The notes beneath the pieces were generated by a model, which saw only the letters and a program-made list of their open reading frames with translations, did no database searches and was not told the DNA's origin. Shown here in pieces: positions 6,459-29,598 of a stretch of 32,563 nucleotides of DNA (its first letter is position 1; every line of letters begins with the position of its first letter). Source of the DNA: Bacteroidaceae bacterium (GTDB lineage: Bacteria; Bacteroidota; Bacteroidia; Bacteroidales; Bacteroidaceae). A program made the position numbers and the translations under genes. The DNA lies in contig JAFYPU010000019.1 in the NCBI GenBank assembly GCA_017547385.1, forward strand, positions 1 to 32,563. Direction: 5' to 3'.

Positions 6459-8033
6459 ATGACAAGCGAAGTAATTGTAGATGTACAACCGAAGGAAATC
6501 TCCATCGCGCTTCTTGAAGACAAAAAACTCGTTGAGTTTCACAAAGAAGGGCGCGCGGAGCATTTCTCTGTCGGCAACATCTATTTAGCAAAAGTCCGCA
6601 AGCTGATGCCCGGACTCAATGCAAGCTTCGTGAACGTTGGACATGAGAAAGACGCGTTCTTGCACTACCTTGATTTGGGAAGCAAGTATAATGCTATTTC
6701 CAGATACCTTCAGATTGTCAGAGATAAGACTAAGAAAATTCCACCCCTCACGAAAGTGCAGGGCGAACCCGACCTCCCTAAAGACGGAAGCATTCAGAAT
6801 TTGCTCAAGCAAGGCGATGAAGTTTTGGTTCAGATTGTCAAAGAACCCATCTCAACCAAAGGACCACGCATCACTTGCGACATATCCTTCCCCGGTCGTT
6901 ATCTCGTGCTTGTACCCTTCAGCGATAAAATCTCTGTATCTTCAAAAATCAAGAGCGAAGCTGAACGAGCACGTTTAAAACAACTCATTCATAGCATTAA
7001 GCCTAAGAATTTTGGCGTCATCATCCGGACTGTGGCGGAGAACAAGCGCGTTGCAGACTTGGATGCCGAGCTTAAAATTCTTGTAAAACGTTGGGAAGAT
7101 ACCATTCAAAGAGTGCGCAATGCTGAGAAAGCACCACAAGTGGTTTTTGAAGAGACAAGCCGCACACTTGCTTTGCTTCGAGATTTGTTCAATCCTTCTT
7201 ATGAGAACATCCACATCAACGATGCAGCCGTCTTTCATGAAATTCACGATTATGTGAGCCTTATTGCCCCGGAATGCAAAAACATTGTCAAGCAATACAC
7301 CGGCAATGTTCCCATTTTTGATAACTTCTCTGTAACCAAACAAATTAAGACTTCGTTTGGTCGCATCATAACTTACAAGCATGGGGCTTACATGTACATA
7401 GAGCACACCGAGGCTATGCATGTGGTGGATGTCAATAGCGGCAACCGCACGAAATCTGCAGACGGCCAAGAAGCCAATGCCCTTGATGTGAACCTTGGAG
7501 CAGCCGACGAGCTTGCCCGCCAACTGCGATTGCGTGATATGGGAGGCATCATTGTGGTTGATTTCATCGACATGAACCTTGCCGAGAACCGCCAGAAGCT
7601 CTATGAGCGAATGGTGGAAAACATGAAAAAAGATCGTGCCAAGCACAACATCCTCCCCCTCAGCAAGTTCGGATTGATGCAAATCACACGTCAACGAGTG
7701 CGCCCCGCCATGGACATCAAGGTGGATGAGAAATGTCCCACTTGCGGAGGTACAGGAAACATCAAGTCAAGCCTGCTTTTCACCGACACACTGGAAGGAA
7801 AAATAGACATCTTAGTCAACAAACACGGCATCAAGAAGTTCCAACTTCACGTACACCCTTTTGTCGCTGCCTACATCAATCAGGGAATTTTCTCGCTAAA
7901 AAACAAATGGCGTCTCAAGTACGGTATAGGTTTTCGCATCATACCCAGCCAAAAATTATCGTACTTGCAATATACTTTCTACGATGCTGCCGGCGAGGAA
8001 ATCGACATGAAAGAAGAGCACGAAAACCAATAA
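6459..8033 (+). CDS. rng: Ribonuclease G/E family endoribonuclease
   Basis: Single-strand-specific endoribonuclease of the RNase E/G family, acting in rRNA maturation and mRNA decay. The 524-residue length is RNase G-like, without the long C-terminal scaffold of RNase E. Order of parts: N-terminal strand (SEVIVDVQPKEISIALLED), S1-type RNA-binding domain (about 35-130, GNIYLAKVRKLMPGLNASFV), the 5'-sensor/DNase I-like region with VDVNSGNRT and the metal-binding IIVVDFIDMNLAENR segment, then a zinc-link CPTCGGTG and a C-terminal dimerisation domain. All expected catalytic features are present. A strong terminator follows. Confidence 0.95.
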   Translation: MTSEVIVDVQPKEISIALLEDKKLVEFHKEGRAEHFSVGNIYLAKVRKLMPGLNASFVNVGHEKDAFLHYLDLGSKYNAISRYLQIVRDKTKKIPPLTKVQGEPDLPKDGSIQNLLKQGDEVLVQIVKEPISTKGPRITCDISFPGRYLVLVPFSDKISVSSKIKSEAERARLKQLIHSIKPKNFGVIIRTVAENKRVADLDAELKILVKRWEDTIQRVRNAEKAPQVVFEETSRTLALLRDLFNPSYENIHINDAAVFHEIHDYVSLIAPECKNIVKQYTGNVPIFDNFSVTKQIKTSFGRIITYKHGAYMYIEHTEAMHVVDVNSGNRTKSADGQEANALDVNLGAADELARQLRLRDMGGIIVVDFIDMNLAENRQKLYERMVENMKKDRAKHNILPLSKFGLMQITRQRVRPAMDIKVDEKCPTCGGTGNIKSSLLFTDTLEGKIDILVNKHGIKKFQLHVHPFVAAYINQGIFSLKNKWRLKYGIGFRIIPSQKLSYLQYTFYDAAGEEIDMKEEHENQ

Positions 8034-9519: not shown

Positions 9520-9774
9520 GCGGCTCGGCATGAAAAGAAAAAGCATAGCTTTTCCTTTGTCCTGCACTCGCCTTTCACTACTTTCGCTTTGCGCAAGATA
9601 GGATGCGGCTCGGCATGAAAAGAAAAAGCAAAGCTTTTCCTTTGTCCTGCACTCGCCTTTCACCACTTTCGCTTTGCGCAAGATAGGATGCGGCTCGGCA
9701 TGAAAAGAAAAAGCAAAGCTTTTCCTTTGTCCTGCACTCGCCTTTCACTATCTTTGCTTCGCAATAACAGACAA
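9520..9774 (+). repeat. Three tandem 85-bp repeats carrying promoter-like elements
   Basis: Units begin at 9520, 9605 and 9690, each with GCGGCTCGGCATGAAAAG, a constant 85-bp period and only a few base changes. The third unit diverges near its end. Each unit carries an AAAAGC...GCTTTT inverted pair, a TTTG, and 19 bp later a TACTTTCG-like block. Only the third unit has a consensus TATCTTTG there. The open frames on both strands through this array are repeat artefacts, not genes. Confidence 0.9.
9726..9756 (+). promoter_or_regulatory. Promoter of the kinase/peptidase/PqqD cassette
   Basis: TTTG (9726-9729), exactly 19 bp, TATCTTTG (9749-9756): a full consensus match. It lies inside the third 85-bp repeat unit, about 54 bp before the first gene of the cassette. 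Confidence 0.8.
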
Positions 9775-9810
9775 TTAGCAAAACGACAAATACTTCAATC
9801 ATTCACGTCA

Positions 9811-10239
9811 ATGAAATTCTTTCGAATAGTTTGCACTCTCCTACTGCTCTTCGGCTTCATTGCATCAACAGATATGAGCGCAAAAGGTGGCGAAGAGAAA
9901 AAGCTCTACGTCTTTGGTTATGGCTTAAGCCTGAAAGACTCCACGGTGTTCCTCACTCCGATTGTTGAATTCCCTATCGCGGAACAAAACAAGAAGACAA
10001 AATTTCTTGACCATCAGGCTGAATATGCCAAACAGATGGAAAGTTTTCTGCATGCTCAGGGCATACCTTTTTGCACCTGTGTTCTGTTTTATGAAAATCG
10101 AAAAGAGAAACTTCAAAAACGCTTAAACAAACTGCGTGAACACACCATCAAGGAAGAGAAGTTCAGCATTCAGAACCTCAACGCTGAACAATTTTCTTTT
10201 TCCCTTGTGTCTTCCTCTAACCAGTCTGCTCAGCCATAA
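9811..10239 (+). CDS. Small secreted protein of unknown function (possibly DUF4858-like)
   Basis: First gene of a four-gene cassette. I chose the ATG at 9811, because the open frame further upstream runs through repeat DNA. The product is 142 residues: a signal peptide (MKFFRIVCTLLLLFGFIAST) and then a soluble, Lys-rich domain with strands such as EKKLYVFGYGLSLKDSTVFLTPIVEF, a helix around DHQAEYAKQMESFLHAQG, a strand FCTCVLFYENRKEKLQ and a basic helix. It resembles small Bacteroidales envelope proteins annotated as DUF4858, but this is from memory and not verified. It has no catalytic motif I recognise. It ends 5 bp before the kinase-like gene, so the two are surely co-transcribed. It could be the substrate or the sensor of the cassette. 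Confidence 0.75.
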   Translation: MKFFRIVCTLLLLFGFIASTDMSAKGGEEKKLYVFGYGLSLKDSTVFLTPIVEFPIAEQNKKTKFLDHQAEYAKQMESFLHAQGIPFCTCVLFYENRKEKLQKRLNKLREHTIKEEKFSIQNLNAEQFSFSLVSSSNQSAQP

Positions 10240-10244
10240 CCCTT

Positions 10245-11129
10245 ATGAACGATTTTTATTTCCGCGTGGCCGATGCCACCTTTCATGTGCGCTTTCACGA
10301 CATTGAAGATGCACGACCGCTTCTCCCCTCTTATGCCCCTTTCCACATCAAAGAGCAGGACCAACCTCTCATGTTCGAAATGAACGTGGCTGCCGGCCTT
10401 GTATCATCAGAGGCTGAAGGAGAAGAAGTGGGCAACTTCGATTGCGGAGGTTGCAATCACGGCATCTATCGTACGCACGACGGCGGTTATAAGATGCTTA
10501 TCAGCAACGTGGACGGTGAATTGGCTTGTGCGCTTCACACCTCAGCCGACTTCAGTCGTTGCGAAGCCAGTCTGCACGGCGATGAAGACATCATGAGCTT
10601 CGGTCTGAACAACGCGCTGATGATTGCTTTTGCCTTTGCCGGTGCCCGACACAACATTCTGCTCATACACGCCAGTGTCCCGATGAAGAACGGCAAGGCT
10701 TATTGTTTCCTTGGCAAGAGCGGAACCGGCAAGAGCACACACTCGGGATTGTGGCTTGAACACATAGCCGACACCGATTTGCTGAACGATGACAATCCTG
10801 CCATTCGCGTGATGGAAGGTGTGGTCTATGTCTACGGCACCCCCTGGAGCGGAAAGACCCCGTGCTATCGCAATCTGCGGATGTTGGCCGGAGGTTTTCT
10901 GCGTTTGGAACAAGCTCCCGAAAACAGCATCCGATGCGAATCTAAATTGCAAGGTTTTGCCTCCATCATATCGTCGTGCAGCAGCATGATTTGGGACAAG
11001 CCTTCATATCATGCCATTTGCGACACTGTTTCCATGGTGGCCGAACGCGTACCGGTCTTCTATCTTCGCAACCTCCCCAACCGTGATGCGGCTTTGCTGA
11101 GTCACGCCACAATGACAGGGGAAGCATAG
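10245..11129 (+). CDS. HPr-kinase-like (HprK-related) P-loop protein
   Basis: The 294-residue protein has an N-terminal alpha/beta domain (about 1-135) and a C-terminal HprK-type kinase domain. Visible motifs: IHAS at 141-144, Walker A GKSGTGKST at 157-165, the acidic NDDNPAI at 181-187 (Walker B/catalytic Asp pair of HprK), and GTPWSGKT at 198-205. There is no HPr-kinase N-terminal domain or PTS context here. Proteins of this class are found in RiPP clusters, where some phosphorylate a precursor peptide, for example in certain lasso-peptide pathways. The PqqD-family gene two steps downstream supports such a role. Substrate is unknown. Kinase activity is inferred from the intact motifs. Confidence 0.85.
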   Translation: MNDFYFRVADATFHVRFHDIEDARPLLPSYAPFHIKEQDQPLMFEMNVAAGLVSSEAEGEEVGNFDCGGCNHGIYRTHDGGYKMLISNVDGELACALHTSADFSRCEASLHGDEDIMSFGLNNALMIAFAFAGARHNILLIHASVPMKNGKAYCFLGKSGTGKSTHSGLWLEHIADTDLLNDDNPAIRVMEGVVYVYGTPWSGKTPCYRNLRMLAGGFLRLEQAPENSIRCESKLQGFASIISSCSSMIWDKPSYHAICDTVSMVAERVPVFYLRNLPNRDAALLSHATMTGEA

Positions 11130-11173
11130 GCACACACTACACTATCGCGTAACTCACACACCACACTGCATTC

Positions 11174-11623
11174 ATGAACACACGCACCATCCCCAACGAT
11201 GTATTGATTCCTGAAATCAAGCGTTTCATCAATGAAGGCCACACAGCCATCTTTCGAGTGCGTGGCAACAGTATGCGCCTGTTTCTGAAAGACGGACGCG
11301 ACAAAGTGGTGCTGGCTCCATGTCGGAAAGCAGAAGTGCGCGATGTGGTGTTGGCAGAAATCACCCCCGGACACTATGTGCTGCACCGCATCATCAAGAA
11401 AGAGGGAGACCGCCTCATCTTGAAAGGAGACGGAAACGTATACGGAACAGAGGAATGCACCACCCACGACATCGTAGGGATAGCAACGGGGTTCATACGA
11501 AAAGGGAGAAACAGCATCGACTCGGTAGAGGGGCGTAAGTGGCGCATCTACTCATCCCTGTGGCTGATGCTCACCCCGATGCGACGCTACATCCTTGGCA
11601 TCTGTCGTCGCTTGGGATTTTAG
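11174..11623 (+). CDS. S24/S26-family peptidase (SipW-like Ser-His type)
   Basis: A 149-residue signal-peptidase-like protein. The catalytic Ser is in VRGNSM (Ser33). In the next box the sequence VLHRI (His71) and KGDGN (84-88) fit the SipW/ER-type subfamily, which uses His instead of Lys as the general base. There is no N-terminal membrane anchor; the C-terminus (LWLMLTPMRRYILGICRRL) is amphipathic and could touch the membrane. It lies between the HprK-like and PqqD genes, with gaps of 44 and 53 bp. It could process a peptide or the secreted protein of this cassette. A LexA-like DNA-binding domain is absent, so a repressor role is unlikely. Confidence 0.82.
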   Translation: MNTRTIPNDVLIPEIKRFINEGHTAIFRVRGNSMRLFLKDGRDKVVLAPCRKAEVRDVVLAEITPGHYVLHRIIKKEGDRLILKGDGNVYGTEECTTHDIVGIATGFIRKGRNSIDSVEGRKWRIYSSLWLMLTPMRRYILGICRRLGF

Positions 11624-11676
11624 CCGCACCGACAACACTTCACACATAAGATAAATAACAATTTAGCACACACGAT

Positions 11677-11943
11677 ATGAAAATTAAACCCGGATTTGAA
11701 ATGCGCAATGTTTGTGGCGAAAAGGTAGTAATCGCCACCGGACTTGAGAACCTTGATTTCAGCAAAATGATCAGCTTGAACGAAACTGCCGCCTATTTGT
11801 GGGAAGCAGCTGAAGGAAAGGATTTCAGTGAAGCGCAATTGGTGGAAGCACTCTGCCAAGAATATGAAGTCAGCCCCGAGCAAGCAGCCAACGACGTGGC
11901 AGCACTCATCAAAAACTGGAAAGAACTTGGATTGGTGGAATAA
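11677..11943 (+). CDS. PqqD-family (RRE-type) protein
   Basis: An 88-residue PqqD-like protein. N-terminal strands (KPGFEMRNVCGEKVVIAT) are followed by ISLNETAAYLWEAAEG, the classic PqqD motif, and a winged-helix-like C-terminal half (LVEALCQEYEVSPEQAANDVAALIKNWKELGLVE). PqqD domains (RiPP recognition elements) bind the leader of a precursor peptide and deliver it to a modifying enzyme. It closes the cassette, with a terminator 20 bp later. No radical-SAM gene, cyclase or transporter is present nearby, so the partner must be the kinase-like or peptidase protein, or something encoded elsewhere. Confidence 0.9.
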   Translation: MKIKPGFEMRNVCGEKVVIATGLENLDFSKMISLNETAAYLWEAAEGKDFSEAQLVEALCQEYEVSPEQAANDVAALIKNWKELGLVE

Positions 11944-16724: not shown

Positions 16725-16916
16725 TTATTTGCTTGAATTACCCATGGAAGAGATGCCATCCGATGTCCCCCAGATTGTGTTGGGGCGACGCTTCTGACTC
16801 CACTCCGTATCAGTTTCTTCATCACGAAACGACATTTCAAGCAAAACCGCATTCTTGGTCTCCATTTCAATGGTCTCCACCTCGGGAGCAATATATTCTT
16901 TTCTAATCATAGTCAT
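16725..16916 (-). CDS. Small peptide 1 (63 aa), paired with the 1490-residue secreted protein
   Basis: Starts 12 bp after the stop of the large secreted-protein gene, so it is in the same transcript, and is followed by its own terminator. Residues: a basic start, then YIAPEVETIEMETKNAVLL, a mid-region MS (28-29), an acidic run, then SQKRR and NTIWGTS before a Gly/Ser tail. It has no membrane span or classical signal peptide. It resembles peptide 2 at 27357-27521 in order and spacing: Y-x-[AT]-P-x-V-E near the N-terminus, then MS, KRR and IWG-x-S near the end. ATG at 16910 is an alternative start. The function is not known. The resemblance suggests leader and core segments, or a protein-binding tag. 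Confidence 0.72.
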   Translation of the reverse strand: MTMIRKEYIAPEVETIEMETKNAVLLEMSFRDEETDTEWSQKRRPNTIWGTSDGISSMGNSSK

Positions 16917-16928
16917 TGCTGTTTTGTA

Positions 16929-19900
16929 TTACTTAATGAAGACTTTCTTACCATTCACAATATAAAGACCCTTCACAGGAGAGGTTACGCGACGACCGCT
17001 GAGGTCGTAAACTTCATCCGATTGGAACACCGATGTTACCTCTTCAATGCCTGTGGTGTTTCGGAAACTGAAAGTCAACGGCTGTGTGGTGCCAACTTCG
17101 TCACCACTGACGCGAGCACGGAAACCTGTGAGGTTCTTACCTATGTACTTATAGAACGCTACACCGCTCTTATTGGCCAACGAATAGTAAAGTCCATCGT
17201 TCACCTGGCTGAACACATCGCCCTTGAGCACATTGTCCGCATCGCTCACAAGGTCGGAAGTAGTGATTTCAAAGTTATAAGTACCGGCTCCGGCATCGGT
17301 TCTGAGCACCACACCCGTACCAGCGGGAATTACTTCATCAAGTTGGGTCAACACCAATTTCGTTCCTTCCACAACACCCGTGTATGCTTCCACTGTTGTG
17401 GGGATATTCAAAGCAACGGGAGTGTAGAGCGTTGCATATGCAAAGCCGTCCTTACCATCATTGAATTTCACAGGAAGTTCTTCAACCTCTTCAATCGCCC
17501 ATGCAGAAGCCAATTTCTTATTCCAAACGCCATCGTCTGTGAAGTTATTCTCGGCATCAACGATAAGGTATCTATCCCCCCAACCTAAAACACTGTTGCC
17601 TTCGTTTGATTTAATAAGATATTTACCAGGTTCGTGGCTCACCTTAAATGTAAAGGTATTGTAACCTGCTTCGGGCTTGCCTGTATTACAGAAGCCATAG
17701 GTAAAACCATAACCGCTTGAATAACCTACCATTTCCTTGCCGGGGGTGTAGTAGAAGATATTTTCAATCTTACTATCAGTCATAGCGGTAAGCGTGCGAT
17801 TGGTGTCTCCAGTTACTGTCTTGTCGTTCAAATAGAGGTCGTTGTACTTGAGCGTGTAGAAACCAGAAGTAAGGTCTAAAATTTCCTTGCTCTTAAGTTC
17901 ATTAAGAAGGTCTTGATCTATAGCCACAGTACTTTTATTGAATTGCATGGGTACACCAGCATCACCATCTGCGTAATATGTAATAACAGGGCCTGTATAT
18001 CCTGTAGAAACAGACATTGTATAACTATCACCCTCAATGTGGAAATAAGGAGTGTCCAAGGCTTTCATCGTGATAGTTACAGGGAAATCAGAGAAAATCC
18101 ATGTATTACCCCAGAAATCTCCCTTACCCTTTGAGTTTACAAACTGTCTCTTACCTACATTGTAGAGGTAGTAATCGCCAGTTTCCTCATCAAGATAGAA
18201 TCCCCAAAGATGATTTAGATTCGTAGCATCAACGTTATCGGTTGTCCAAACGAATTCTGAACTATACGCTTCGTCACGCTCTGTCTTATCAGCGTTATAC
18301 ACCAACGAGTAACCTCTGTTGGTAATTGTGAAGTAGCAATCAGTGGGGAAGAATACTTTCTTTTCCGCTTCCGCTACAACATTCATAGCACCATTAAGTG
18401 CGTCAGTCGCTTCCGCAAAAGTCTTACCATAGAGACCGCCATTGAAGGTGTCGTACAACGCATCTGTACTATTTTTATTTGCATAACCAGGAACGCCTAC
18501 ATTTGCTTGATAAGCGTCTGCCTGAGTTTCTGCGTAGCGAGCCTTGGCTTGTGCGATAAGGTTAACTAATTCTTGAGCTTCTTCATCGTAGATAACATCC
18601 CAACGTGAATTGGAGTCATCAATACCTCCCCAAGCAAGAATCTTATATGAATTACCTTCATTTCCTAAGTGCATGTGTTCATTTCCAGATACGAAATGCA
18701 CGGCTTGAACTTCATCCTGATAAATTTCAAAGGTGTAATTCGCTGCATCTGCACTATTCTCTGTGATGTTCGCGGAATTGGGATTTTGGAAATACTTGTT
18801 AGTTCCGAAGTGGAATAACTTATATGTGCCATCGTTGTTGTTGACTATTTGGAGGTACTCATCAACATACTTCTGCTCATCATTTTTAGGAGCAATACCG
18901 CCCATATATTTCACATCGTTAACCTCGATAACTCCCAACGCTCTACCAACACGACCATCCTCACTCGTAGATTTATTCACAAACTTGAACACCTTGCCAT
19001 CCAAGAGTCCTGCGAGTTGTTGACGTCCCAATACCCATGATGCGAAACTTGAGTTATTGGCATACGCAGTGTTGATGTCGGGATTAGCACCATTGCCTGT
19101 CCAAGGCGCCCATTCCTTCTTGAGATTTTCAACTACAGGAGAAAGACCTTCATCAAACACTTTTGTATAGAACACTTCGTTAATCATCATCACCGAACCA
19201 TCGGCATTGTAAGCTGCTCCGTTGTTCCACTTTGCCAAGTATTCGCCACGGTCGTTTAAGAAGTCGTCTTCAGAACCATGCGTGCGGATAAAGAATTGTC
19301 CCTTACCACCATTGAATGCGTGAAAGACAACATCGTAAGTTGAGGCTTCTGCAACGGGTTTCATCATGGTGCGTGCATTCTCTTCGCTACCAGTAGTAGC
19401 CAAAGCATAATCTGCGCCCCATGCGCGGTTGTAAATCTTATAACCATCAGTGTCGTTACCTACGAAGCACCACAATGCAGCCGAATTTGTTGCCACAGTG
19501 TTGTTGTTGAGCATCAAGTTGTTTGACCAATCGGTGTAAGCGGGTTCTGCACAAACACGATTGCCCGTGCCCAGTCCCTGGTTGACGGTATACCAGTTTG
19601 TATTATCCGCCCAATCGCCGTTAGGAGCATCTGAAGGCTTCAAACGAAGGTTTGCACCTGTTACTGTAATTGTACCTGCATTCTTATCCAAATTATGTCC
19701 CTGTTCACCAGTCAATTCTGGAGTGTTACATACGAAGTAACGGATTCTATATTCGCCTGCGGGAATATGCTCAAGAGTATAAGTGTTATTATTAACTGCT
19801 GTACCTGCAGTGCCTTGGTGATAGTCAAACTCGAAAGCCGTGCCGTCAAGATAAACAATATCAACACCTAAGATATTCAACAAGTGTCCGCCACCGTCAT

Positions 19901-21401
19901 ACGTAAATGTTACCGTGACATCACTACGTGAATTCACCTTGATAGCTGTGCTGGCACAATAAACTTCATGGGTAGTGTTGTTTTCTCCACCAACAACCCC
20001 ATGATTCAGCGAATTAATCAAAGTTTTCACAGAAGTGGGGCATTGTTTCTCATCATTGATATCTACAGCACCCTTATTCCAAAATGAAGTTCCTACTGGA
20101 TACTTTTGCACAAAACCGAGGTTGGTGTTGGCTGAAGATACTGTAGATACAGTGTATTTACAATGAGAATCTCTATTCCAATAGTAACCCTTTACAGAAG
20201 TATCCCCATAAAGATAATAAAAAGTCTCTACTGTGTTGCCGTAGCTAACGTTTGTAGTTGTACTGTAAAGGTACTTAAAATTGAAAAACGCATCTTCTCC
20301 ACCTAAATTAAAATAACTGGGAGTATCGCTCAAACCAATTGTTGTGCTCTTGACATTTTCCTCAAAGGAAATATATTTCTGTGCACCAATATTATAAAGA
20401 GCGTATGTGATAGCCAAACCTACGATTCGAGGTTTGATATACCACTGACTGTATTGATTGTTGTCACCAGTTTCTCCTGTTAATGTTGTTAACTTGTCGT
20501 CTACAACCGCCAAACGATTGTTTGTGTTTTGTTGGGGGTGAAGATATACAGGAACTTGCACGTAGTCACCCGTTACAGGGAAGGGGAAGTCAATGTCGCC
20601 TGTTATCGTATTTGTTTCCTCATTGTAGTAAACATTTGACACGTCACAACCATAAGCATCTCCACTCATGTAAAACTCATAGAAGTCACTCCAACCTTGG
20701 TGTGTGCCTGTAATGGTATTACCGCCTTGGCCTATCAAATTAACAGATGCTTCTACATACTTTACCTGTGAAGTAGACTTTGAAGTAACTTTGTAAATAT
20801 TGAAGTAAGTTTGATTAGTAATGCTACTTGCTTCAGTTATATTGTTGCGATTATCAACAGCCAAGTATGTTTGATTGCTATTATTAGCACACTGAATATT
20901 CCATTTGCCACTACCATCAGCAGCAGGTACAAACTTATAAGCACCGATACGGGAATCTTCCCCTGTTGTTCTCAAATAGGTATAGTCTTGGGTATTGTAA
21001 TCAAGTTGTCCTAAATAACATTTAGCATCGCCACCAATAATCATCATGTGCGCAGACTTAAGTTGGAACGTCCCTGCATTCACATCTATTGTTTTGGTCG
21101 TCCACACACCCACACCAACAGGTTTGTCCTGCATATACACAATGTGAGCAACACCATAAGTGGAAAGAGAGTAGATGGTGAGATACAAACCATCGCGCTC
21201 AATCATGATTTCCATGCCGTCCTCAATCTGATCAAGAGAGGTGAGCTTTTCCATCCCTGTGATTTCAGCCGCAAAAGGATAGTATCCCTTTTCTGCTCCT
21301 CGTTGAGCAATTTCCGCCTTTTGCTCCTCCGTCAATGCCTGCGCACATACTCCTAAAGTCATCAGAAGCGTCGCTAAGAAGAGTGTAATTTTTTTCATCA
21401 T
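16929..21401 (-). CDS. Giant secreted modular protein with T9SS-like sorting tail (1490 aa)
   Basis: A predicted secreted or surface protein. Signal peptide: MMKKITLFLATLLMTLGVCAQA. The body has no catalytic motif that I recognise. It contains repeated beta-rich units with a recurring LYNxGxxxYx type motif (for example ALYNIGAQKYISFEEN, KIYNRAWGADYALA, KLFHFGTNKYFQN, YLYNVGKRQFVNS), suggesting several beta-trefoil-like or ricin-like binding modules. A helical FIVAR-like part (LVNLIAQAKARYAETQADAY to MNVVAEAEK) lies in the second half. Residues about 1320-1430 form a beta domain shared with the sialidase at 27553-29598. The last 27 residues (EVYDLSGRRVTSPVKGLYI...) are a short Por/T9SS-like sorting signal. 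It is likely a glycan- or host-binding protein; this is inferred. A small peptide gene follows 12 bp later. Confidence 0.9.
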   Translation of the reverse strand: MMKKITLFLATLLMTLGVCAQALTEEQKAEIAQRGAEKGYYPFAAEITGMEKLTSLDQIEDGMEIMIERDGLYLTIYSLSTYGVAHIVYMQDKPVGVGVWTTKTIDVNAGTFQLKSAHMMIIGGDAKCYLGQLDYNTQDYTYLRTTGEDSRIGAYKFVPAADGSGKWNIQCANNSNQTYLAVDNRNNITEASSITNQTYFNIYKVTSKSTSQVKYVEASVNLIGQGGNTITGTHQGWSDFYEFYMSGDAYGCDVSNVYYNEETNTITGDIDFPFPVTGDYVQVPVYLHPQQNTNNRLAVVDDKLTTLTGETGDNNQYSQWYIKPRIVGLAITYALYNIGAQKYISFEENVKSTTIGLSDTPSYFNLGGEDAFFNFKYLYSTTTNVSYGNTVETFYYLYGDTSVKGYYWNRDSHCKYTVSTVSSANTNLGFVQKYPVGTSFWNKGAVDINDEKQCPTSVKTLINSLNHGVVGGENNTTHEVYCASTAIKVNSRSDVTVTFTYDGGGHLLNILGVDIVYLDGTAFEFDYHQGTAGTAVNNNTYTLEHIPAGEYRIRYFVCNTPELTGEQGHNLDKNAGTITVTGANLRLKPSDAPNGDWADNTNWYTVNQGLGTGNRVCAEPAYTDWSNNLMLNNNTVATNSAALWCFVGNDTDGYKIYNRAWGADYALATTGSEENARTMMKPVAEASTYDVVFHAFNGGKGQFFIRTHGSEDDFLNDRGEYLAKWNNGAAYNADGSVMMINEVFYTKVFDEGLSPVVENLKKEWAPWTGNGANPDINTAYANNSSFASWVLGRQQLAGLLDGKVFKFVNKSTSEDGRVGRALGVIEVNDVKYMGGIAPKNDEQKYVDEYLQIVNNNDGTYKLFHFGTNKYFQNPNSANITENSADAANYTFEIYQDEVQAVHFVSGNEHMHLGNEGNSYKILAWGGIDDSNSRWDVIYDEEAQELVNLIAQAKARYAETQADAYQANVGVPGYANKNSTDALYDTFNGGLYGKTFAEATDALNGAMNVVAEAEKKVFFPTDCYFTITNRGYSLVYNADKTERDEAYSSEFVWTTDNVDATNLNHLWGFYLDEETGDYYLYNVGKRQFVNSKGKGDFWGNTWIFSDFPVTITMKALDTPYFHIEGDSYTMSVSTGYTGPVITYYADGDAGVPMQFNKSTVAIDQDLLNELKSKEILDLTSGFYTLKYNDLYLNDKTVTGDTNRTLTAMTDSKIENIFYYTPGKEMVGYSSGYGFTYGFCNTGKPEAGYNTFTFKVSHEPGKYLIKSNEGNSVLGWGDRYLIVDAENNFTDDGVWNKKLASAWAIEEVEELPVKFNDGKDGFAYATLYTPVALNIPTTVEAYTGVVEGTKLVLTQLDEVIPAGTGVVLRTDAGAGTYNFEITTSDLVSDADNVLKGDVFSQVNDGLYYSLANKSGVAFYKYIGKNLTGFRARVSGDEVGTTQPLTFSFRNTTGIEEVTSVFQSDEVYDLSGRRVTSPVKGLYIVNGKKVFIK

Positions 21402-21802: not shown

Positions 21803-21803
21803 G

Positions 21804-22586: not shown

Positions 22587-22694
22587 TGTTTAGTTCGCAA
22601 CGTCTGGCCTTAAGCCTTGAGTTAAGGTTTATATATAAAAAAAAGAATTTTCCATCACGCACAACTCAAGAGTTGCAACGTGAAAGAAAATTAG

Positions 22695-22767
22695 AGCGGA
22701 AAACGAGACTCGAACTCGCGACCCCAACCTTGGCAAGGTTGTGCTCTACCAACTGAGCTATTTCCGC
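22695..22767 (-). tRNA. tRNA-Gly (GCC), copy 2
   Basis: 73 nt on minus with anticodon loop TTGCCAA and an intact T loop (GAGTTCGAGTCTC). The tRNA body is identical to the first gene of the array (22990-23062). CCA is not encoded. Confidence 0.95.
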
Positions 22768-22776
22768 AGGACTTGG

Positions 22777-22860
22777 TGAGGAGAAGGAGACTCGAACTCC
22801 CACGTCACAATTGACACTACCCCCTCAAAGTAGCGCGTCTACCAATTCCGCCATCTCCCC
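22777..22860 (-). tRNA. tRNA-Leu (GAG)
   Basis: 84 nt with the long variable arm of leucine tRNAs. The anticodon loop TTGAGGG gives GAG. The 3' end is followed by CCA in the DNA (22774-22776). Confidence 0.93.
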
Positions 22861-22882
22861 ATGTCTTTCTTTGAACCCCAAG

Positions 22883-22963
22883 TGCCCAGAACAGGACTCG
22901 AACCTGCACGTCTCTCAACACTCGCACCTGAAACGAGCGCGTCTACCATTCCGCCACCTGGGC
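22883..22963 (-). tRNA. tRNA-Leu (CAG)
   Basis: 81 nt with a long variable arm. The anticodon loop TTCAGGT gives CAG. The acceptor GCCCAGG pairs with TCTGGGC; CCA is not encoded. Confidence 0.93.
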
Positions 22964-22989
22964 AAAGATTCTCTTTGTGCAATATGTGG

Positions 22990-23062
22990 AGCGGAAAACG
23001 AGACTCGAACTCGCGACCCCAACCTTGGCAAGGTTGTGCTCTACCAACTGAGCTATTTCCGC
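22990..23062 (-). tRNA. tRNA-Gly (GCC), copy 1
   Basis: First gene of the array on minus. Its anticodon loop is TTGCCAA and the 73-nt body is the same as copy 2 at 22695-22767. Confidence 0.95.
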
Positions 23063-27242: not shown

Positions 27243-27294
27243 GGCCTCTTTCCCTCTCAAACCGCAAAGACAGACAAATCATCGAGAAGCGACA

Positions 27295-27335
27295 AAAAAT
27301 CAGGGATGACTCCACAAAGAGCCATCCCCGATTTC
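27295..27335. terminator. Bidirectional terminator between the glycosylase and peptide 2
   Basis: AAATCAGGGATG pairs with CATCCCCGATTT with small mismatches (27297-27334). The minus strand continues into a T run. It serves the convergent transcripts. Confidence 0.7.
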
Positions 27336-27356: not shown

Positions 27357-27521
27357 TTAAGACCAAGGAGAATTACCCCAAATTCCTTTGCTGCTCTCAA
27401 ACTCACGACGTTTTGAATGCTGCCCTTCCCCTCGCTCCGGAACAACCGACATAGTGCAAAGCATACTCTCAGCTTTCAGAGAGAGAATTTCAACTTGGGG
27501 AGTTCTATATGTTTTTTTCAT
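27357..27521 (-). CDS. Small peptide 2 (54 aa), paired with the sialidase
   Basis: Begins 31 bp after the sialidase stop on the same strand; too short for default ORF cut-offs. Sequence landmarks: MKKTYRTPQVEILSLKAES, a mid-region MS (24-25), then HSKRR (35-39), and SSKGIWGNSPWS at the end. The order Y-x-[AT]-P-x-V-E, MS, KRR, IWG-x-S is the same as in peptide 1 (16725-16916), although the rest differs. No signal peptide and no membrane span. A terminator follows at about 27335. Function unknown. Alternative: a small regulatory or chaperone-like peptide. Confidence 0.7.
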   Translation of the reverse strand: MKKTYRTPQVEILSLKAESMLCTMSVVPERGEGQHSKRREFESSKGIWGNSPWS

Positions 27522-27552: not shown

Positions 27553-29598
27553 TTATCGTACAATATATTTCTTTCCACCACGGATATAAACACCGGGCTG
27601 TGTGGCATCCTGCACACGACGACCACCAAGGTCATAAACCGGGACTTCTTCCCGCAACACATCCATGCCGACACCATTGATTTCGGTTGTCTCACCATCG
27701 ACAACTCTCAACATCAGTGAAGCGGCCTGAGGCTGTTCAATACGCAGATAAGCCAAATGAGCTTTGAGATAGCCGTTGGGAGGAAAATAGAAAGCTTCAC
27801 ACCGGCTGCCATGGCTGAGTACGTAATAGGACGCATAGTTATCGTCCGTAATCTCAATGTTTTCACTACAGCAGCCTTGAAGCAGGTTATCCGCACTCGC
27901 TTCTGCATAGGCATACACTTCCAATTTGATTTCCGTACGCTTCATTTCATCACGTAGCACCACAGGTTCACCGGCCGGCACCACATTTCCGATGGCCTCA
28001 ATATCAATAAGAGATTTGTCCTCTGATATGCCGGTTACCTTATATGCCGTTACACCTTCGGGCACATGCACAGTGAAAGGCAGGTAGAGCGTTGCCCACG
28101 AATAGGCAGAGGAGGCTTGCGTATGTGCTTCATCAGTGCACACATGCATCTTCTTATTAAGCAAATTCACATCCGAGATAATTTCCGCGCCTTCAGATTT
28201 GATGATGTCTGCAATGGATATTCGCTTGTACATAATGTCGTAACCTGTGGCATGATTACATTGACCCCAATGAGCAATGGATTGGGGCACTCCTCCGCAA
28301 GCATAGGCGTTTTTTTCATAAGCCGCACCAATTTTTCCATCGCTCTGAATAATCATTGTGGAATAGGCTGCCGTGCCCTCCGCAAGCATATAGGCATCTG
28401 CCGTAGAACACCAGCCGGAAGTGGCAAAACGGGTTACATTCGTATAGTCTGCCTCGCTCAGTTTCTTATAGTAAATTTTCACATCCGAACGTGCATTGTC
28501 AGTTGTCGGAATGGACTGCAAAACATAATACTCGAGCGTTCCGTCATTATTCACAGGCACAATGAGCATCTCGCCATTGGTGGCCGTGGACTGATTAAAG
28601 GTATATTCCACACCGCCATCACTCAGCCACTTATTTTCTTTAGGGTCGTAAATATTAAACTTACGAGTTCCATTTTTGTATTTGGCCGACACAACGATGT
28701 TTCCATTGGGCAGTTCCTCCGCCTTGGCTTCGTCACCGCCGGAAACAGCTATTTCGTCGCCGCAAAGCTGCCATGTAGCACCAAAATCGTCGGAACAAAG
28801 AAGAACACTGCTAGCTACAGATTTCTGATTATACCAGTTTCCTTCCCATTTGATTGTTGCAAGAACTGCATACAAACGGCAGTATCGTTTTCCCGAAGCT
28901 TTATAGGTGCTTTGCAAAATACGGCCGCTGGAAAAGAACATGCCATCATAGTCCAATTTTGTATAGATGTCCTCTGTCAAATCGGTATAGCCGTTTCCCC
29001 AGGTTGCACCGCCATCATTACTGTAATAACGACGAATTTGCAAGCGCCCACCAGCCTTATTCTCGGATTCAGTGAAAAACACATCACCACCGGCTGTTAT
29101 CACCAATATTTCTTCGCGATTCTCGCGGTTGGCCACTACAGCCACATCACCGCTGGCGTCCGAACCGGAAGTGGCACGCGACACAAATTCTCTCTTCGTC
29201 AAATCCCAAGTTACTCCAAGGTCCGTACTACGACGGAACACGATGTCAATTTGGCTGCTTGTGGCACCATTACATGCAACACCGACTTTGTGCTGTCCGA
29301 TGTCACCATATCCCCAGCGCTTATCCGCAAACACAAGTATCTCACCATGTGCAGCCTCCACAATGGCTGGAATGCGATGCGGCACATTCGTTTGATTGGC
29401 TTTCGTTACCGAATTGTAAATCTCGTCGCACGGAGATTTAAACACCTCCACTTCTGTCTGCGCCTGCACCATGTTTCCGGGAAACAGAAGAAGGGAACTG
29501 CAAAAAATGAGCTGAAGATGCTTCTGCCTCTCCAGAGCCTGACGGCAAATGCCCATCAAGCTTCTGATTTCACCTTTTGAATTTTTCATTTTCATCAT
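27553..29598 (-). CDS. Secreted sialidase (GH33-type) with T9SS-like tail
   Basis: An exo-alpha-sialidase that releases sialic acid from host glycans at the cell surface or outside. The 681-residue product has an N-terminal signal (LQLIFCSSLLLFPGNMVQAQ) after a long basic stretch; several Met starts are possible. The catalytic domain shows RIPAIV (Arg75), three Asp boxes (STDLGVTW 124-131, SNDGGATW 193-200, SDDFGATW 269-276), the AEELPNGN Glu region and AYSTMIIQSDGKIGAAYE, where GH33 enzymes have the nucleophile Tyr and its Glu partner. A beta domain (about 500-620, WATLYLPFTVHVPEGV) resembles the one in the 1490-residue protein. The last residues (VYDLGGRRVQDATQPGVYI) form the sorting tail. 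Followed by a small peptide gene. Confidence 0.93.
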   Translation of the reverse strand: MMKMKNSKGEIRSLMGICRQALERQKHLQLIFCSSLLLFPGNMVQAQTEVEVFKSPCDEIYNSVTKANQTNVPHRIPAIVEAAHGEILVFADKRWGYGDIGQHKVGVACNGATSSQIDIVFRRSTDLGVTWDLTKREFVSRATSGSDASGDVAVVANRENREEILVITAGGDVFFTESENKAGGRLQIRRYYSNDGGATWGNGYTDLTEDIYTKLDYDGMFFSSGRILQSTYKASGKRYCRLYAVLATIKWEGNWYNQKSVASSVLLCSDDFGATWQLCGDEIAVSGGDEAKAEELPNGNIVVSAKYKNGTRKFNIYDPKENKWLSDGGVEYTFNQSTATNGEMLIVPVNNDGTLEYYVLQSIPTTDNARSDVKIYYKKLSEADYTNVTRFATSGWCSTADAYMLAEGTAAYSTMIIQSDGKIGAAYEKNAYACGGVPQSIAHWGQCNHATGYDIMYKRISIADIIKSEGAEIISDVNLLNKKMHVCTDEAHTQASSAYSWATLYLPFTVHVPEGVTAYKVTGISEDKSLIDIEAIGNVVPAGEPVVLRDEMKRTEIKLEVYAYAEASADNLLQGCCSENIEITDDNYASYYVLSHGSRCEAFYFPPNGYLKAHLAYLRIEQPQAASLMLRVVDGETTEINGVGMDVLREEVPVYDLGGRRVQDATQPGVYIRGGKKYIVR

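Follow-up and report, generated by a model that had tools for sequence, protein, structure and literature searches.

We propose, with a confidence of roughly three in four, that a 54-residue peptide encoded at positions 27357-27521 (minus strand) is a RiPP precursor that works like the LPP (linear polyphosphorylated peptides) of Bacillota and is translated from the 3' end of the mRNA of the exported cargo protein in front of it. The peptide gene lies in a window of 32,563 nucleotides, the whole stretch of DNA analysed here, which belongs to the draft genome of a Bacteroidaceae bacterium (G000; 2.35 Mb, 34 contigs, 86.5% complete). This proposal builds on observations of gene order, selection, conserved motifs, and the presence and linkage of a processing machinery. 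We narrowly favor a broader picture as well: a trans-acting RiPP system of Bacteroidota whose single kinase-RRE-protease operon matures at least a dozen phosphopeptides, the companions of exported proteins, and thereby couples export to peptide release.

The first-pass annotation had placed a 54-codon minus-strand ORF 31 bp behind a sialidase, and such an ORF, with an ATG start, is present at 27357-27521. The gene in front of it (27553-29598, minus strand; its ORF ends at 27553) encodes a 681-residue sialidase-like protein with BNR/Asp-box repeats and a sorting-type tail at the C-terminus. The sialidase label is based on the BNR repeats (PF02012, E = 1e-6) and on a neuraminidase model that remained below its threshold (160 bits, cut-off 900); no named orthologue was confirmed with this protein as the query. 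Its tail (27556-27696, minus strand) scored 82 bits against tail profile A3, which was itself built with this tail. A terminator-like hairpin followed by a T-run (27294-27335, minus strand; MFE -28.3 kcal/mol, z -7.5) lies 21 bp past the stop codon of the peptide. This hairpin was absent from the output of a simple terminator scan, in which the sole minus-strand site was a weak one within the 54-residue peptide gene (27483-27466); the scan gave no site between the sialidase and the peptide.

A second small peptide, of 63 residues (16725-16916, minus strand; second ATG at 16910), is encoded 12 bp behind the gene for a 1490-residue protein without an assigned family (16929-21401, minus strand), and nothing was found near it by the simple terminator scan. 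The two peptides had been described as related by a shared order of landmarks. BLASTP agrees with this description, aligning 52 residues with 29% identity (E = 2e-5, a single comparison), and the listed landmarks occur in both. The two cargo proteins had been described as unrelated secreted proteins; both carry the same kind of tail, as claimed, but they are not wholly unrelated, having a C-terminal segment in common besides the tail (WATLYLPFTVHVPEGVTAY... and YATLYTPVALNIPTTVEAY...). Alignment of the DNA at cargo-peptide junctions showed no common motif beyond the coding ends. In the 54-residue peptide, the leader contains Y5xxP8, E18, and a candidate phospho-Ser25 (Y+20), and the variable tail contains W48 and W53.

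The same arrangement was found repeatedly in the window's own genome. With the 54-residue peptide as the sole query, a search of the whole genome at any place gave 8 matches, and 7 of these, the query itself included, lie behind genes whose products carry a C-terminal tail of this kind. A 9-row profile (A1) gave 14 matches, 13 of which stand directly behind a tail gene, mostly at gaps of 12-42 bp with one at 407 bp; the exception (L002/L015) stands in front of a lipoprotein gene. The chance of a position behind a tail gene is 0.4% for each peptide, so about 0.06 would be expected compared with the 13 observed (binomial P ~1e-30). The predicted enrichment behind sorting-tail genes, on which the first-pass annotation had staked its claim, was thus borne out. 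Profile A3 matched the genome 49 times, and 42 matches finish near the C-terminus of an ORF; by hand count, six others were set aside for lying more than 10 residues from a stop codon and one for being a 15-codon fragment. A peptide follows 13 of these 42 tail genes (12 scored by script and one at contig C33 read by hand, which a start-codon filter had dropped) and is missing behind 29, counts to be read with the reservation that A3 was built from 8 of the 13 peptide-bearing tails and therefore leans to them. A 15-codon fragment resembling the end of a sorting tail is seen just behind a peptide (L033, G000:C5:56873-56908) and is possibly the remnant of a recombination at the tail-peptide junction.

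Relatives were searched with profile A4, which has 14 rows taken from the place-blind whole-genome search plus the second window peptide. In 24 relatives it gave 109 further peptide matches; 14 of the 15 same-genus genomes had matches, and the 9 genomes of other families had none. The surroundings were read for 108 of the matches: 92 peptides follow a tail gene (tail score at least 17.7 bits), 8 are at a contig edge, and 8 are elsewhere. Thus, 92 of the 100 peptides with readable upstream DNA are directly behind a tail gene, and the suggested two-gene unit of a secreted protein with a sorting tail plus a small peptide recurs here as it does in the own genome (13/14). The gap between tail gene and peptide was 3-211 bp in 54 measured pairs and at most 50 bp in 41 of them. 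Seven of the eight peptides located elsewhere lie 19-239 bp before a gene whose product start appears, by eye, lipoprotein-like or secreted-protein-like; no exported-protein gene was seen near the eighth (L085).

Public contigs were examined as well. For the best 80 tail loci among the matches listed, mostly from Prevotellaceae or Bacteroidaceae MAGs and 77 of them with at least 250 bp of room, a peptide was found within 600 bp in 32, including those of Prevotellamassilia timonensis and Prevotellaceae bacterium HUN156; the tail loci of Prevotella ihumii and Breznakibacter xylanolyticus had none within that distance. In a survey of 151 genomes from 30 genera of the family, at least one peptide match (E 0.01) was detected in 111 genomes and 24 genera. 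Two or more matches were present in 80 of these genomes and a single one in 31; as some of the single matches are close to E 0.01, a few could be due to chance. Paralogues are numerous, with 14 in the own genome and 29 in G156.

Letter-identical or near-identical peptides were observed behind different cargo genes, namely a pair in one genome (L152 and L153; G001:C113:526-675 and 6600-6749) and three in another (L093, L159, and L164 in G013). They suggest a peptide able to travel as a cassette without having to match one particular cargo, and they argue against a strictly cargo-specific function. Two different peptides of the family are also encoded in tandem behind one cargo gene at L096 (G004:C1:1155054-1155152 and 1155230-1155343), and an apparent tandem pair stands in front of a lipoprotein gene at L104 (G001:C93).

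The peptides combine a conserved leader pattern, YxxP...E...LAxS, with a variable and acidic tail containing Trp. YxxP is present in 117 of 117 peptides, a count that is partly circular given their selection by profile, and Glu occurs at Y+13 in 72% of them. Ser is found at Y+19 or Y+20 in 99 of the 117, compared with 9.6% Ser in the tails, and neither Ser nor Thr is found there in 10; in the LPP motif, as given in the accessible part of its description, Ser is at Y+18. Of 93 peptides, 92 have a Trp among their last 25 residues, often in the form W-x4-W. Six pairs of similar peptides, one member from G000 and the other from its relative G008, were chosen by eye with synteny unchecked; pN (0.05-0.34) was below pS (0.25-0.87) in all six. 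Scans of the peptides with Pfam and NCBIfam gave no telling family match, and the peptide profile found nothing in the PDB. A double-glycine leader was considered and rejected, as the conserved Ser is, by eye, not usually preceded by Gly. Two readings of LAxS place the cut differently, either at the -3/-1 positions of a signal peptidase site or, in an LPP-like manner, three residues before the Ser.

The candidate processing machinery is encoded in the window by an operon on the plus strand (10245-11943), 4.8 kb from the nearer peptide; in this genome the operon and the precursors are unlinked. Its first gene (10245-11129) encodes an HprK-like kinase, which we propose phosphorylates the peptides. 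The kinase weakly resembles HprK-related kinase A (TIGR04352, E = 4.4e-4, below cut-off) and reached no family cut-off, and the P-loop proteins that its profile found in the PDB were all weak matches. The P-loop SGTGKSTH (GKSGTGKSTH in the window) is invariant in 11 of 11 aligned kinases. The second gene (11174-11623, plus strand) encodes an S24/S26-type protease (PF00717, E = 8e-7) similar to archaeal/ER-type signal peptidases and proposed to be the leader peptidase. Its Ser33 and His71 are invariant in 8 of 8 aligned proteases, and the candidate Asp99 is present in 6 of 8; the layout Ser...His-Arg...GDGN is presumably that of archaeal/ER-type signal peptidases. In front of the kinase lies a gene for a putative exported protein (9688-10239, plus strand), and genes of similar appearance, by eye, occupy the same place at L318, L319, and L320.

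The third gene of the operon (11677-11943, plus strand) encodes a PqqD-family RRE (PF05402, E = 1.5e-19; TIGR04353, E = 9.8e-6, below the curated cut-off), which is proposed to bind the YxxP leader. Its profile matched TfuB1 (E = 7.5e-6), PbaB1 (9x90, E = 0.0024), and TbiB1 (E = 0.014) in the PDB. Residues N35 and D73, present in all nine of the aligned RREs, face residues 60 and 97 of the 9x90 chain, which correspond to G42 and Q79 of PbaB1 with an offset of 18 that we derived from F83. According to the accessible text of the LPP study (PMC13381572), the substitutions G42N/Q79D make PbaB1 bind a Tyr leader much better, and N33 and D70 of LppB make contacts. By analogy, we infer that N35/D73 is a Tyr-selecting pair for the YxxP leader.

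RRE and protease genes were found beside the kinase gene in 15 of 15 loci from 14 distinct genomes, comprising the 12 best kinase matches and L318, L320, and L322. Kinase matches were present in 122 of the 151 family genomes, or 118 after removal of four with weak matches alone. Peptide and strong kinase were both present in 104 genomes, the peptide only in 7, the kinase only in 14, and neither in 26 (odds ratio 28). The corresponding counts were 90, 5, 9, and 6 within SprA-positive genomes (p = 7e-4) and 14, 2, 5, and 20 within SprA-negative genomes (p = 3e-5); these Fisher p-values overstate independence because the genomes are related by shared ancestry, and gaps in draft genomes add noise to the co-occurrence. 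The 7 of 111 peptide-bearing genomes without a strong kinase include G091 (94% complete, 9 peptides), and 14 of the 118 strong-kinase genomes gave no peptide match.

The tail of the cargo proteins was examined in relation to the T9SS. The own genome encodes SprA (PF14349, E = 1.5e-226), indicating that the T9SS translocon is present. No sorting-domain family matched either window cargo protein (NCBIfam and Pfam, E up to 1). Tails of the form YDLSGRRV...GVYIxNGKKV in SprA-bearing genomes are similar to T9SS C-terminal sorting domains, the families of which we take to be TIGR04183 and PF18962. SprA was found in 110 and the tail in 109 of the 151 family genomes, and the two agree in 140 (both present in 104, both absent in 36; the tail alone in 5, SprA alone in 6). 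This agreement indirectly supports the tail, defined here by sequence, as a T9SS sorting signal. The peptide occurs together with SprA in 95 genomes, SprA without the peptide in 15, the peptide without SprA in 16, and neither in 25. Three genomes without a SprA match (G034, G153, and G156) carry at least 47 tails each and 17, 4, and 29 peptides, respectively; of 15 peptide places read in G034 and G156, 14 were behind a tail gene and one was at a contig edge. G034 is rated 100% complete, and its at least 47 sorting tails without a SprA_N match reflect either an assembly gap or tails without a translocon.

Peptide matches were also found in 12 genomes that have neither SprA nor tails. Eight of these, chosen for peptides without SprA and not for the kinase, hold 20 matches, many of which have the N-terminal half YxAPKCExIExxxEGxLCxSG in common. 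In 18 of the 20, the peptide gene stands directly before a gene with a lipoprotein-type signal according to our own motif test, the ATG of the latter lying -11 to +62 bp from the peptide stop codon. A partner restricted to the T9SS was rejected on these grounds. Five of the lipoprotein-type gene products were scanned: that of L314 was fimbrillin-like above the Pfam cut-off and that of L281 below it, that of L313 had GLUG motifs, and those of L315 and L316 had no match. Five of the 20 matches lie within 5.5 kb of a homologue of the kinase gene at 10245-11129, compared with 0.09 expected (P = 4e-8). At L317 (G086), genes for the kinase, protease, RRE, NTP_transf_5 (PF14907), ABC exporter, and peptide follow one another on one strand, so that a full LPP-type gene set ends in a peptide of this family in a SprA-less relative. 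At L313, the peptide gene belongs to an operon-like series that also includes genes for the kinase, RRE, and NTP transferase, beside export-like genes and one that we read, from its sequence, as Wzc-like. No protease gene was visible in the DNA retrieved for L313, L314, and L316, and that of L315 is separated from the kinase gene by about 7 kb. In the SprA-less genera of L313-L316, the RRE, kinase, and NTP-transferase-like genes were observed beside polysaccharide-export-like genes; LPP clusters of Bacilli are often within capsule loci, according to the accessible text (PMC13381572).

The LPP of Bacillota, published in 2026, are defined by the gene set lppAKBSDN, and the following points are taken from the part of that report available to us (PMC13381572). 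LppK phosphorylates the Ser at core position 3; the leader, whose YxxP is needed for efficient binding, is cut by the signal-peptidase-like LppS (catalytic triad Ser-His-Asp) together with the RRE LppB. The discussion calls LPP restricted to Bacillota, with an unknown role, while according to the results most, not all, protease matches are from Bacillota. On this partial view of LPP, both systems have an archaeal-type signal-peptidase-like leader peptidase, a discrete RRE with a Tyr-choosing N and D, and a kinase that is HprK-like in LPP and putatively so here, and both have precursors with a YxxP leader, a variable C-terminus, and, as a candidate counterpart of the LPP site, a Ser 18-20 residues further on; at L317, the whole gene set is joined to a peptide of this family. 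The differences are that the host phylum here is Bacteroidota, that the precursors in the window's genome are scattered, each beside an exported-protein gene, that the tails have Trp near the end, and that the window operon has no NTP transferase and exporter beside it, which belong to the LPP core set (the exporter there being MsbA-like). The latter finding applies to the surroundings of the operon, where the search was made. The HQxIxFET stretch is also missing here, its HQ, F, and T not being conserved; of the full LPP leader motif reported there (YxxPxVLxHQxIxFETxxS), Y, P, Glu at +13, and Ser at +19/20 alone are common to the two. Because the full leader motif and the operon-adjacent NTP transferase and exporter are missing, we classify the peptide system, on sequence features, as LPP-like and not as a member of LPP. 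The HPr-rel-A system of NCBIfam similarly combines a kinase (TIGR04352) with a PqqD-type protein (TIGR04353), but the matches to both models are below the curated cut-offs here. Literature searches on peptides behind T9SS cargo and on HprK/PqqD systems and LPP found no LPP paper besides PMC13381572, and none describing precursors scattered beside secreted-protein genes or peptides behind T9SS cargo; subscription papers were mostly outside the scope of these searches.

The following course of events would be consistent with these data, the binding, phosphorylation, and cleavage of the peptide being read from sequence alone. The gene arrangement suggests that the sialidase and the peptide are on one transcript, which would end at the hairpin behind the peptide. 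From its residues and solved homologues, the RRE (11677-11943) is predicted to bind the leader via Tyr5-x-x-Pro8. The HprK-like kinase (10245-11129) would then, by analogy with LppK, phosphorylate the Ser 19-20 residues after the Tyr, and the signal-peptidase-like protease (11174-11623) would remove the leader near the conserved LAxS. We speculate that a short, acidic, Trp-bearing, and highly variable core is released and probably exported, and that it might act at the cell surface with the cargo or under the same conditions as the cargo. One processing operon would serve many scattered precursors, each next to an exported-protein gene (for T9SS cargo or a lipoprotein), and the pairing may exist for the sake of co-expression with surface proteins.

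Among other explanations, bacteriocin-like RiPPs that serve competition and borrow the promoters of secreted-protein genes are possible, though we consider this function doubtful; it is a sub-reading of the LPP-like explanation that differs from it in function, and the odds of the two overlap. The leader/core layout, the rapid variation of the core, the RiPP-type operon, and the many paralogues (14 here and 29 in G156) are as expected for such peptides, but an unsystematic look around the two window peptides revealed neither a dedicated exporter nor an evident immunity gene, and the family stays with exported surface proteins even in genera of different context. Less likely still is an unmodified peptide that acts as a small partner of the cargo, such as a helper of export or folding or a regulator of the T9SS, with the RRE operon processing something else. 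The tight coupling to tail genes (41 of 54 pairs within 50 bp of each other, range 3-211 bp) and the strong co-occurrence of tail and SprA (tails in 104 of 110 SprA-positive genomes) would suit a partner of this kind. Against it, 29 of the 42 tail genes in the own genome have no peptide, 18 of 20 matches stand before a lipoprotein gene in eight genomes without SprA or tails, near-identical peptides occur behind different cargo, and the leader that fits the RRE is conserved, in contrast to the highly variable tails.

Lasso peptide precursors are a very improbable identity. As in Paeninodin-type lasso peptides, as far as they are described in the text available to us, an RRE, an HprK-like kinase, and a [Y/W]xxP leader occur together here; the RRE profile matched lasso-type RREs, and 4 of 46 peptides weakly matched NCBIfam lasso_cyano (best E = 0.063). 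However, the RRE has the Tyr-selecting N/D and not the G/Q given in that text, and the protease beside it is signal-peptidase-like and belongs to a different family from the B2 leader peptidase. The B2 peptidase (PF13471) was not found in the own genome or in any of the 8 same-genus genomes sampled, making a lasso pathway unlikely, and it was above the cut-off in 2 of the 151 family genomes; the lasso reading was rejected on its absence from the own genome and the same-genus sample. Chance ORFs or a profile artefact, which might be feared with very short ORFs in a draft genome, have next to no probability: this reading was rejected on the placement of the peptides, far beyond chance (13 versus about 0.06 expected), and on pN < pS in 6 of 6 pairs, and matches in 24 of 30 genera also speak against it. 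We retain the LPP-like precursor as the preferred reading.

If this LPP-like reading is true, a RiPP class whose 2026 description, in its accessible part, restricts it to Bacillota extends to Bacteroidota, and many short unnamed ORFs gain a meaning, with matches in 111 of 151 genomes of the family. The kinase-RRE-protease operon would gain a candidate substrate, LPP-like peptides would gain a recurring partner in exported proteins, and protein secretion would be tied to a peptide system; the question of what the peptides are for would become testable.

In addition to these genes, the window contains four consecutive tRNA genes (22694-23062), in which Gly(GCC) occurs twice, around Leu(GAG) and Leu(CAG). 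A tRNA-Arg(TCT) gene at 21803 lies about 0.8 kb from this run.
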